DNA of 64,000 bases, taken from Sulfurovum sp. AR (GTDB lineage: Bacteria; Campylobacterota; Campylobacteria; Campylobacterales; Sulfurovaceae). This document shows, one piece after another, positions 29,313 through 60,917 of this stretch. The position numbers and the translations under genes were made by a program. Position 1 is the stretch's first letter; each line of letters begins with the position of its first letter. The stretch is taken from the NCBI RefSeq assembly GCF_000296775.1, contig NZ_AJLE01000006.1, positions 248,001 through 312,000 on the forward strand. Direction: 5' to 3'. The notes under the pieces were generated by a model. The model was not told the origin of the DNA. It saw only the letters and a program-made list of their open reading frames with translations, and ran no database searches.

Positions 29313-30641
29313 CTACGCACCTTCGTTCATCAGAGAAAGAAACTCTTCATTTGTTTTGGTTTTCATCATTTTAGAGAAGAGGAACTTCAGCCCTTCTACT
29401 TCTTCCATGTTTTGCATTGCATTTCTCAATGCCCATACTTTTTGAAGCGTTTCAGGATCCATCATCAATTCTTCTTTTCTTGTTCCTGATTTTGTCACAT
29501 CGATCGCAGGATAGATACGTCTTTCAGAGACGTGACGGCTAAGCACCACTTCGGAGTTACCTGTACCTTTAAACTCTTCAAAGATCACTTCATCCATACG
29601 GCTACCCGTATCTATCAGTGCTGTAGCAATGATGGTCAAAGAACCACCCTCTTCTATGTTTCTAGCTGCACCGAAGAAACGTTTTGGTTTATGAAGTGCA
29701 TTGGCATCCACTCCACCAGAGAGTACTTTACCTGAACTTGGTGTAACTGTGTTGTAGGCACGTGCAAGTCTTGTGATAGAGTCAAGTAAGATGATGACAT
29801 CTTTACCCATCTCTACTCGTCTTTTGGCTTTTTCTATCACCATTTCGGCTGTTCTGACGTGATTCTGTGCAGGAAGGTCAAACGTCGAAGCATAGACTTC
29901 ACCTTTCACTGAACGCTGCATGTCTGTAACCTCTTCCGGTCTCTCATCTACAAGTAGTACCATCAGAGAAGCATCGGGATTGTTGTGTGTAACCCCATGT
30001 GCAAGCTCTTTTAAAAGTTCTGTTTTACCTGTTCGCGGCGGAGCAACTATCAGTGCTCTTTGTCCTTTTCCTATAGGGGTAAAGAGGTCAAGTACCCGTC
30101 CGGTCATTTTCATTGGATTATATTCGAGTTTGAGTTGTTCACTGGCATACAATGGAGTAAGGTTTTCAAAAAGAGGTCTCTGTTTCGACTTCTCCGGAGC
30201 TAAATAATTGATCGCTTCAATTTTAAGCAGTGCATAATACTTCTCTTGGTCTTTAGGCGAGCGTACCTGACCTGTAACAATATCACCATTTCTCAGTGCA
30301 AATCGTTTGATCTGTGTACCGCTTACATAGGTGTCATTACTCGAGTTGGCAAAGTTTCCGTCTATTGAGCGTAAAAAACCAAAACCATCGTTCATGATTT
30401 CAAGAATACCCGTATAGAGGATAAATCCTCCCTGGCTCACTTGTGATTTAAGGATTTCGAAAATAAGATCTTTTCTTTGAAATTCATTAGGGTTTTCAAC
30501 TTTAACTTCTTTTGCTATCGTTACAAGTTCTGTCAGTGGAAGTTGTTGAAGATTTTCTATTTTGTAGCCCTCTACCGGTACGTGTGTTCTGTTTTTCCTG
30601 CTGGCAGCATTGCCGTTAGAAGATTTTTTATTATCGCTCAT
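29313..30641 (-). CDS. rho: Transcription termination factor Rho
   Basis: The 442-residue RNA helicase has the N-terminal Rho helix-bundle ([21 protein letters not shown]), the cold-shock RNA-binding domain ([15 protein letters not shown]), P-loop [15 protein letters not shown], Walker [17 protein letters not shown], and the Q and R loops ([23 protein letters not shown]). It terminates unlinked transcripts. The start at 30641 has AGAGGAAAT, and the upstream in-frame codons are not expected in the protein. Confidence 0.98.
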
Positions 30642-58292: not shown

Positions 58293-59009
58293 ATGAAAAA
58301 TGCAAAGCTTATCTATATCCTGCCAAATCTGTTTACTGCAAGCAGCATTTTTGTAGGGGTGATAAGTATGGTCGAAGCAAGCAAAGGAAACATAATACTT
58401 GCTTCATGGCTCATCCTTTTGGCACTTGTCTTTGACGGTTTGGATGGGCGTATTGCACGTATGACAAACACCACCAGTCAGTTTGGTGTAGAGTTTGACT
58501 CTTTAGCAGACATTATCTCTTTTGGTATCGCTCCAGCCATGTTACTCTATTTTTTCATTGGTAATGAATTTGGACGTTTTGGCATACTGGTCTCTGCACT
58601 CTATGTGATCTTCGGTGCGATTCGTTTGGCGCGATTTAACATCTCTACTGCAAAAACAGACCCCAACGTATTTATAGGACTGCCTATTCCTACTGCAGCC
58701 ATTTTTGTCTCCATGTGGATACTTCTCTTTTATAAATATACACTTGAAGATTACGGTATCATATTGCTTTTTCTAACGCTTGGTATTGCCGTACTGATGG
58801 TAAGTAACTTTCGTTACCCTTCATTTAAGAAGGTAAGCCTGGACAAGCCCATGGTATTTAAAACCATGATCATGCTGATGCTGACCGCTTCTTTACTCTA
58901 TCTTTTTTCGGCAGAAGGCTTTGCCATTATTATCTTAGGATATACACTCTATGGTCCTCTTCGTGCATTACGGACATTAAATGTACGAAATATCAAAATT
59001 AAGAGATAA
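58293..59009 (+). CDS. pssA: Phosphatidylserine synthase (CDP-alcohol transferase)
   Basis: The 238-residue membrane protein has the CDP-OH-P signature in FDGLDGRIARMTNTTSQFG followed by EFDSLADIISFG, and about six to eight membrane helices (for example IILASWLILLALVF). It makes phosphatidylserine from CDP-diacylglycerol and serine. It starts three bases after the ftsH stop. A leucine leader transcript begins shortly after it. Confidence 0.92.
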   Translation: MKNAKLIYILPNLFTASSIFVGVISMVEASKGNIILASWLILLALVFDGLDGRIARMTNTTSQFGVEFDSLADIISFGIAPAMLLYFFIGNEFGRFGILVSALYVIFGAIRLARFNISTAKTDPNVFIGLPIPTAAIFVSMWILLFYKYTLEDYGIILLFLTLGIAVLMVSNFRYPSFKKVSLDKPMVFKTMIMLMLTASLLYLFSAEGFAIIILGYTLYGPLRALRTLNVRNIKIKR

Positions 59010-59019
59010 TTATTATCCC

Positions 59020-59048
59020 TTGTATTTTATTTTTAAATACTGTATAAT
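59020..59048 (+). promoter_or_regulatory. Strong promoter for leuL-leuA
   Basis: TTGTAT (59020-59025), a spacer of exactly 17 bases and TATAAT (59043-59048). This is the best sigma-70-like promoter I saw in the window. The expected transcription start is near 59055, 17 bases before the leader peptide ATG. Confidence 0.7.
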
Positions 59049-59071
59049 TTCTAAAATTTAAAGGAGAGATT

Positions 59072-59143
59072 ATGAAAACTATCATAAACCAACATACTAT
59101 TTTCACTAAAGATAGCTCTCTCCTGCTGCTGCTCGCACTCTAA
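59072..59143 (+). CDS. leuL: Leucine leader peptide (attenuator) of leuA
   Basis: A 23-codon frame has an ideal ribosome site (AAGGAGAG) and encodes MKTIINQHTIFTKDSS followed by six Leu among its last seven residues (LLLLLAL), with codons CTC CTG CTG CTG CTC GCA CTC. It sits between a strong promoter and leuA, the first enzyme of leucine synthesis. Such a Leu run is the mark of a ribosome-mediated attenuator. The leader ribosome site (59062-59069) is perfectly complementary to 59117-59124, inside its own Ser-Leu codons. I found no clear intrinsic terminator after it, so the final switching step is not seen. Confidence 0.82.
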   Translation: MKTIINQHTIFTKDSSLLLLLAL

Positions 59144-59298
59144 TCGTCTAACGATCCATACCCTTTTTACACAATAAATAAACAATTAGTTTCTAATAAC
59201 TACAATTTAGGTAGAATTAGACAATCATTTACACCCGTACTTTAAAAAAGTATGCTATTGAACCCTCACTGCCAGGTGTAGCTTTAATGAGAGGTATG

Positions 59299-59321
59299 AT
59301 AATGTGGCGCTGCCGCATTAT
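59299..59321 (+). promoter_or_regulatory. Strong hairpin directly before the leuA ribosome site
   Basis: ATAATGTGGC and GCCGCATTAT form a 10-bp stem with one G-U pair and a GCT loop. It ends at the GAGGAGAA of leuA (ATG at 59335) and could hold down translation or be the anti-attenuator output. A longer-range pairing, TACACC (59230-59235) with GGTGTA (59275-59280), also lies in this leader. Confidence 0.55.
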
Positions 59322-59334
59322 GAGGAGAAACAGA

Positions 59335-60885
59335 ATGGAAACCATAAAAATATTTGACACCACATTAAGAGACGGTGAGCAGAGCCCAGGGGCTTCTATG
59401 AACACTGAAGAGAAGATCCAGATCGCTGCACAGTTAGAGCGTTTGGGTGTAGATATCATCGAAGCGGGTTTTGCCGCAGCAAGTCCCGGAGATTTTGATG
59501 CGATTGACAAGATCTCACAAAGGGTCACAAACTCGACGGTCTGTTCTTTGGCCAGAGCGATCGATGCAGATGTAAAAGCAGCAGGGGAAGCCATCGCCAA
59601 AGCAAAGATGAGACGTATCCATACATTCATAGCCACCTCAAGCATCCATATGGAACATAAGCTTAAGATGAAACCTGATGAAGTGATCAAAAGAGCGGTC
59701 AGAGCTGTTGAGTATGCACGTACATTCGTGGATGACGTAGAATTTTCCTGTGAGGATGCAGGCCGTTCAGATATCGGTTTTATGAAAGAGATCTCTGATG
59801 CCGTCATAGAGGCAGGTGCAACTACGATCAACTTACCCGATACGGTGGGGTTCAGACTTCCTTTTGAGATCGGTGCAATGGTCAAAGAGATGAGCGAATA
59901 CACCAAGGGTAGAGCGATCATCTCCGTACATAATCATAATGACTTAGGTTTGGGTGTCGCAAACTCTTTAGAAGCGGTGATCAATGGTGCAAGACAAATA
60001 GAGTGTACCATCAACGGTTTAGGTGAAAGAGCAGGAAATGCTGCACTGGAAGAGATCGTCATGGCATTAAAAACACGTTCAGATGTCTTTGCTGACTATC
60101 AAACCAATATCAACACCAAAGAGATCTACCCATCAAGCCGTTTGATCGCCAATATTACAGGTATAGAACCTCAGCCGAACAAAGCCATCGTCGGTAAAAA
60201 TGCTTTTGCACATGAGAGCGGTATTCACCAGGACGGTATGTTGAAAAATAAAGAGACTTATGAGATCATACGTCCGGAAGATATCGGATTGGATATGGAT
60301 GACACATTGGTCTTAGGTAAACACTCGGGCCGTGCAGCCTTTAAAGACAAATTGGCGAAGTTAGGATTTACTTTAGATAATGAAGCATTAAATGCTTCTT
60401 TTGAACGTTTCAAGATCATGGCAGATAAGAAAAAAGATATTTATGATGATGACCTAAGGGCGTTGGTCACTGATGAGATGACAATGGCGCCTAAAGTCTT
60501 TGAATTGGTCTCTTTACAGTTAATGGATTGTTCCAATGGTGTACCCTCAGCGGCAGTAAGTATTAGAAAAGGCGAAGCAGAGATCATTGATGCAGGTATA
60601 GGTGAAGGGACCATCGATGCGGTCTTTAAAACTATTGACAGGATCTCCGGCTATGAGGGTCAATTGATGGACTACAAAGTAAAGTCGGTAAGTCAGGGTA
60701 AAGATGCTTTGGCAAATGTCACCGTTAAAGTCTCATTCAACGGCGAACCTGCCATCATAGGACATGGATTGAACATAGACACCATGTTAGCCTCGGCAAG
60801 AGCTTATATCGGTGCGCTAAATTCTTACTTGAGCATGGAAGGGAAGTTAAAGTCTCGTTACGTTGACAGTTCAAAGACTGTCTAA
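59335..60885 (+). CDS. leuA: 2-isopropylmalate synthase
   Basis: The 516-residue enzyme begins [20 protein letters not shown] and has [32 protein letters not shown] and the metal-binding HNHNDLG. A C-terminal LeuA allosteric domain (about 390-510) gives leucine feedback control. It condenses 2-oxoisovalerate and acetyl-CoA. GGAGAA precedes the ATG at 59335; an in-frame upstream ATG at 59287 lies in the leader hairpin region and is rejected. It is controlled by the leuL leader upstream. Confidence 0.95.
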
Positions 60886-60917
60886 TCCCCTTTCCTTGAT
60901 TGATATTCAGACTTTTT

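Follow-up and report, generated by a model that had tools for sequence, protein, structure and literature searches.

A conserved LeuL-type leader peptide before leuA in Sulfurovum, a probable attenuator

The locus studied here raises the question of whether a short leucine-rich peptide encoded in front of leuA controls that gene in Sulfurovum, and by what means it could do so. The window, which is the whole stretch of 64,000 nucleotides of Sulfurovum sp. AR that was analyzed (contig NZ_AJLE01000006.1, positions 248,001 to 312,000), contains leuA, encoding 2-isopropylmalate synthase, at 59335-60885 (Pfam HMGL-like and LeuA_dimer), with ftsH-like and pssA-like genes upstream and a hemD-like gene downstream on the same strand. 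Positions are those of the window and features lie on the + strand unless stated otherwise. In the enterobacterial leu operon, Leu codons are found in a leader peptide 5' of leuA, and the enterobacterial leu and trp leaders act by attenuation through mutually exclusive terminator and antiterminator hairpins. The window resembles the enterobacterial leu leader by the Leu codons in a leader peptide before leuA, but it differs by the absence of a terminator/antiterminator pair, by its run of CUC and CUG codons and by the hemD-like gene that stands directly after leuA in place of another leu gene.

According to the LeuL passages of the first report, C. jejuni transcripts led in 2013 to the proposal of LeuL, a peptide of 28 amino acids with five rare Leu codons, orthologs occur in most leucine-making Epsilonproteobacteria, and the C. 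jejuni leader RNA ends shortly behind the stop codon (PMC3847290). LeuL translation was seen in 2025 by initiation-site ribosome profiling, in a study whose tBLASTn searches generally traced leader peptides no further than C. jejuni or related Campylobacter (PMC11955535). The LeuL passages of both papers contain no mention of amino-acid-level conservation, of a helix at the ribosome site or of P2, the second promoter-like element presented below (PMC3847290, PMC11955535), and in the parts of the open-licence literature available to us we found no description of the peptide conservation or mechanism of LeuL. The leaders analyzed here share with LeuL the rare CUN Leu codons (PMC3847290, PMC11955535), whereas the stretch that precedes these codons varies from family to family. 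The tBLASTn restriction to Campylobacter fits the strong divergence of the peptide that we found between families.

The leader gene and its conservation in the Sulfurovum group

We observed the leader ORF, MKTIINQHTIFTKDSSLLLLLAL, at 59072-59143, with 23 codons and a TAA stop, a C-terminal end LLLLLAL and a gap of 191 nt to the leuA start at 59335. A ribosome site, AGGAGAGA (59062-59069, with AGGAGAG at 59062-59068), precedes the ATG at 59072, and the leader promoter P1 (59020-59048) comprises TTGTAT at 59020-59025, 17 nt, and TATAAT at 59043-59048 with a TG before the -10; P1 and the ribosome site are both conserved in the genus. The P1 pair did not appear in the output of the promoter scan because TTGTAT agrees with TTGACA at only three of six places. 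The putative control codons CTC CTG CTG CTG CTC GCA CTC occupy 59120-59140. As for LeuL, an ORF of 20-35 amino acids with a ribosome site and with leuA directly downstream is thus found in the window, and the peptide, ribosome site and promoter are all present as the earlier note had claimed. No match was obtained in Pfam/NCBIfam up to E 10 for the window peptide and the peptides of three relatives, nor in Rfam up to E 1 for a T-box or other leader in 58300-60900.

The earlier note had called for a comparison of the leaders upstream of leuA in related genomes. We searched 78 genomes of the genus, obtained a leuA match in 73 and fetched 68 upstream regions, from which one locus (L016) was left out since its contig begins inside leuA. 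A Leu-tailed leader was present in all 67 remaining Sulfurovum-group loci, that is, in every one having upstream DNA, which is not expected by chance. The ORF length is conserved (21-24 codons), LLL is found in 66/67 leaders (the exception, L170, has LLSLL), and all but L179 start with M-K. In addition, TATAAT or TATACT lies 18-50 nt 5' of the leader ATG in 67/67 loci, together with a TTG-type -35 in 65/67. In L002 the ORF is identical to that of the window over 72/72 nt, with 19 differences in the upstream 120 nt; the close relative L068, on a contig named Sulfurovum sp., has a LeuA 86% identical to that of the window and the leader MKHVMQQHTIFAQETTLLLLSL.

The choice of Leu codons in these leaders was strongly biased. 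Among 364 Leu codons of the genus leaders, we counted 156 CTC, 117 CTG, 62 CTA, 25 CTT, 4 TTA and no TTG, so that CUC, CUG or CUA account for 335/364; TTA and TTG make up 36% of the 1731 Leu codons in 49 ORFs of the window used for comparison. The order of the codons is also fixed, the first Leu being CTC in 56/66 leaders and the second CTG in 57/66. Overall, on this comparative evidence, the leader gene before leuA is real and conserved and belongs to the already described LeuL type. Conservation, the promoter, the ribosome site and the strong preference for CUN codons all support the proposal that a Leu leader controls leuA, while its novelty for Campylobacterota does not stand, LeuL being known from the published passages (PMC3847290, PMC11955535).

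A few leaders depart from the common form. Four of them (L022, L150, L176 and L183) carry related repeats with CTTTAAGCAAAGCTCAAA, or a near variant, at the leader stop codon, and their peptides end unusually, with LLLLLLS, LLLLPVI or LLLLLSK. In two others, the genus loci L021 and L179 that lack P2, the Leu run is preceded by the atypical ISIRIVS and ISIQDTS, and the spacers, of 61 and 57 nt, are the shortest.

Conservation ahead of the Leu codons in other families

A leader was scored in 74 of 99 loci from other genera of the order, one of which (L038) looks spurious: 45 carried LPKIEIKN or a near variant, 29 another Leu leader, and 25 none. The LPKIEIKN leaders are distributed by family as f20 17, f18 11, f4 11, f9 4, f22 1 and f10 1, and one is present in a contig named Sulfurospirillum (L069). 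Near-invariant, lineage-specific stretches stand directly before the Leu codons, namely KxLPKIEIKNxLL in these six families, FIKSVN[ST]LLLL in f8 and KxYIFIYKLSLLNLL in a Campylobacter-like genus. In the f10 locus (L043), the gene in front of the leader seems to run into the leader ATG, and the leader of this group may therefore be translated after that gene and not from its own promoter.

For 43 distinct LPKIEIKN leaders, pN was 0.035 and pS 0.92 over the eight motif codons (uncorrected, pS being saturated), columns that are favoured because the motif itself was used to pick the loci; over 16 codons, pN was 0.148 and pS 0.805. The columns before the motif, which were not chosen, were also nearly fixed, with K in 39/43 at -13, K in 41/43 at -10 and G in 42/43 at -16. 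Over 13 codons, the three codon positions had identities of 0.84, 0.89 and 0.52, and identity in the translated frame reached 0.81 vs 0.39 and 0.42 in the other frames. Leaders of the FIKSVN[ST]LLLL type, from 26/31 f8 loci, gave a pN/pS of 0.26 (0.13-0.52), and those with Y[IL]FIYKLSLLNLL, from 11/15 loci of the Campylobacter-like g42, which we guess to be the C. jejuni group, a pN/pS of 0.074 (0.02-0.15), the rows being motif-picked in both cases. The leaders of the window's own genus had a pN/pS of 0.58 (0.46-0.78), a weak amino-acid-level signal. Their codons at -7/-6 are nearly fixed compared to genome usage (ATT for 54/58 Ile, TTC for 45/53 Phe), which suggests an RNA-level constraint.

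The distribution of the LPKIEIKN class requires 6 changes, 5 of them forced by well-supported branches, on a 43-row tree of LeuA with open deep forks; the class would thus be old, or repeatedly gained and lost. A genome search for LPKIEIKN matched 48/200 genomes with one match each, and some of these places were compared with the leuA positions. LPKIEIKN was not found in the open-licence PMC literature.

Taken together, these patterns indicate selection at the amino-acid level on the LPKIEIKN residues before the Leu codons, pointing to a possible role of the nascent chain in relatives. As with arrest peptides of the TnaC type acting with Rho, a G-poor tract lies behind the leader stop and no intrinsic terminator is found, and relatives have conserved nascent-chain residues; the window's peptide differs by its weak amino-acid-level constraint, and its effector and stalling would be putative. 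Tentatively, at somewhat less than even odds, LeuL could be more than a counter of Leu codons: the nascent chain would take part in much of the order, through ribosome stalls that depend on the peptide, are coupled to Rho and perhaps respond to leucine or Leu-tRNA, and in the Sulfurovum branch RNA pairing would have taken over part of this role. Of all the leaders tested, that of the window is the least peptide-like, and this idea rests on the relatives.

RNA pairing and the region between leader and leuA

As observed in the window, TCTCTCCT (59117-59124), formed by the Ser codon and the first Leu codons, makes 8 pairs with the leader ribosome site at 59062-59069 (score 20), and this helix is contained in the minimum-energy fold of the leader. 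More generally, UCUCUCCUG, made up of the Ser/Thr codon and the first two Leu codons, is complementary to AGGAGAGA. We compared the best contiguous pairing in 128 distinct leaders, counting identical pairs once and excluding L038, L223 and every leader that lacks LL in its tail. The mean was 16.34 vs 15.5 when partners were swapped between species (0/100 swaps as high; kinship ignored) and vs 12.1 or 12.9 with synonymous codons. By group, again ignoring kinship, the swap test gave 18.2 vs 17.3 for the genus (60 leaders) and 14.71 vs 14.17 for the rest (68), and no excess within the LPKIEIKN group (42 leaders, 14.02 vs 13.98, 48/100 swaps as high). These comparisons suggest that the Leu codons pair, with covariation, with the leader's own ribosome site.

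The second promoter-like element, P2, was analyzed in 80 leaders of the family (67 of the genus and 13 others). Its -10-like hexamer is TAGAAT at 59212-59217, and TANNAT in the setting TTTAGGTAAAATTAGAC was found in 70/80 loci by a strict pattern and in 78/80 by a looser one; by eye, the hexamer was missing from L021 and L179. It lies within an inverted repeat, TCTAAT ... ATTAGA (59192-59221), with changes on both sides in 3/31 aligned relatives. RNAalifold on these 31 compact leaders gave a consensus of UCUAA/UUAGA and ACC/GGU, with 8 pairs and -2.97 kcal/mol, in which one pair shows two-sided changes in three sequences and is broken in one. The arms change together in L155 and L182 (A-U) and L178 (C-G) within the alignment and in L157 (G-C) outside it. 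A2 and A5 of the hexamer are kept though unpaired in the RNA fold. By eye, the left arm is lost in L167, L169, L172 and L197 with TANNAT retained, an observation that speaks more for a promoter than for a hairpin of RNA alone. As a promoter-like element independent of the leader, P2 may provide a basal level of leuA. We tried and rejected a DNA operator, TTAGGTARAATTAGAC, shared with other genes: it has one exact site in the genome, and with up to 3 mismatches we counted 44 sites vs 92 for the reversed control, with no sign of a regulon. In f8, many of the loci L041 and L321-L347 contain a TTTTCTTTTTTTATTTAAAAAAAGATATAAT-like sequence between leader and leuA, where an inverted repeat again stands immediately 5' of a -10-like hexamer.

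A stem begins at a fixed distance behind P2. In the window, the arms TACACC (59230-59235) and GGTGTA (59275-59280) start 12 nt behind the hexamer and enclose a 39-nt loop with repeat-like sequence, with no T-run. Over all offsets from 0 to 44, a range set beforehand, the profile peaks for stems starting 12-14 nt behind the hexamer (0.19 vs 0.01 in shuffles); at least 4 perfect pairs beginning 7-17 nt behind it were present in 60/78 loci, an offset range picked after viewing the loci. We read this stem as a possible hairpin at the 5' end of a P2 RNA. Its loop contains GTCATYCYGGA-like palindromic repeats in L003, L028, L030 and L180 and GGAAGTG-like ones in L005, L013, L014 and L157, as if it tolerated insertions.

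Closer to leuA, the segment 59265-59294 resembles a repeat (AGGYGNAGCTTTAGTGAGAG) that is interspersed in genomes of the genus; it is followed by the hairpin ATAATGTGGC-GCT-GCCGCATTAT (59299-59321), which has no T-run and adjoins the leuA ribosome site GAGGAG (59322-59327). A pseudoknot-like riboswitch in the window's 110-nt spacer (ACACC/CTCAC/GGTGT/GTGAG) was considered and rejected, with no Rfam match and a core scattered through the genus. The AGGYGNAGCTTTAGTGAGAG core is matched within 3 mismatches in 59/78 genus genomes and, being so dispersed, is read as a repeat relic; the whole 190-nt spacer occurs once in the genome. An ATG in frame with leuA lies upstream of its start (59287-59334) and is probably unused, since by eye the frame is not maintained in L149 and L150.

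Termination and the alternatives weighed

Directly at the stop codon lies a small hairpin noted by eye, ATCGT-CTA-ACGAT (59143-59155), which reads ATAGT-CTA-ACTAT in several relatives (C-G to A-U). A G-poor, C/U-rich tract, a putative Rho loading tract with 2 G and 10 C in 35 nt, covers 59144-59178. The 35 nt behind the stop contain 5% G and 24% C across the 67 genus loci, against 16% and 16% in intergenic DNA of the window; values of about 5% G and 22-24% C hold for the genus, for the rest of the family and for the LPKIEIKN leaders, and f8 has 3% G but only 9% C. Among intergenic 35-mers, 9.5% likewise contain no more than 2 G together with 4 C or more, and composition alone is weak evidence for Rho. 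The window encodes rho itself (29325-30563, - strand; TIGR00767, 684 bits, above cut-off). Our terminator search bore out the earlier claim that no intrinsic terminator is found in 59143-59334, which holds for this genome. By a strict rule, a terminator-like hairpin with a T-run precedes leuA in 17/67 genus loci (0.8 expected) and 5/13 other family loci (0.2 expected), and in none of the 45 LPKIEIKN loci nor of 5 f8 loci. In the genus, 13 of the 17 are the hairpin at fixed distance behind P2, and in the other four (L024, L167, L173 and L174) GGTAG pairs with CTACC. The composition behind the stop, the rho gene in the window, the ends of the C. jejuni RNA and the lack of T-run hairpins in LPKIEIKN and f8 loci make a Rho-type ending the preferred, though unproven, mechanism.

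We consider it fairly probable that 59072-59143 is leuL, a ribosome-mediated attenuator of leuA in which Leu-tRNA-dependent stalling controls read-through from P1, probably with Rho. With charged tRNA-Leu(CUN) ample, one ribosome would complete the leader and depart; the Leu codons would then close the leader ribosome site, the G-poor, C/U-rich RNA would be left bare, and transcription would end early, most likely by Rho since no hairpin terminator is present there. With Leu-tRNA short, the ribosome would be held on the Leu codons, the ribosome site would stay open and the tract occupied, and RNA polymerase would continue into leuA. Points that weigh against this reading include the terminator-like hairpins of 17/67 genus loci, the missing swap-test excess in the LPKIEIKN group and the lack of a leader in some genera of the order (25/99 loci outside the genus).

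Attenuation of the classical kind, in which terminator and antiterminator hairpins exclude each other, appears unlikely. The T-run hairpins exceed expectation in the genus and in the other family loci, with stems of unlike sequence, and the GGTAG/CTACC pairing could compete with neighbouring hairpins. However, no terminator was found between leader and leuA in the window, and the consensus of 31 leaders (the window not among them) contains the P2 inverted repeat only, with no antiterminator or alternative hairpin involving the leader ORF. Moreover, the hairpin lies about 75 nt behind the stop, beyond the reach of a stalled ribosome, at a fixed distance from P2; we dropped the terminator-like hairpins as an attenuator since most sit 12-14 nt behind the P2 hexamer.

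The peptide could also be a relic, or a small protein acting elsewhere, with leuA expressed mainly from P2 under a DNA-binding regulator at the inverted repeat. The leader would indeed have little weight if the downstream P2 dominates, and the TANNAT hexamer of 78/80 family loci, its A2 and A5 kept though unpaired, and the co-changing arms of L155, L182, L178 and L157 agree with such a view; but a leader that functions is suggested by its nearly exclusive use of CUN Leu codons and by the conservation of P1, and near matches to TTAGGTARAATTAGAC, beyond its single exact site, did not exceed the control. We hold this explanation to be distinctly unlikely. We regard as very unlikely a translational attenuation, in which the leuA ribosome site (AGGAGA) would be sequestered by the Leu codons (UCUCCU) except when a ribosome is stalled on these codons. 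The window and its six closest allies do have an AGGAG-type leuA site with which the Leu codons can pair, forming 6 pairs in the window. However, in most of the genus leuA is preceded by AAGGT or AAGGC, poor partners for CUCCU, and the leader's own ribosome site forms a longer helix with the Leu codons (8 pairs).

Overall, attenuation by leuL, probably with Rho, remains our preferred reading. These results confirm LeuL across a whole genus of the Campylobacterota and define its anatomy, and they make testable how an attenuator may function with no visible terminator and whether the conserved residues before the Leu codons stall the ribosome in relatives. The self-closing ribosome site, P2 with its fixed hairpin and the peptide-level selection in relatives are worth following. 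If the conserved residues do stall the ribosome, a leader of the textbook codon-counting kind would, across part of its range, be read for its peptide.
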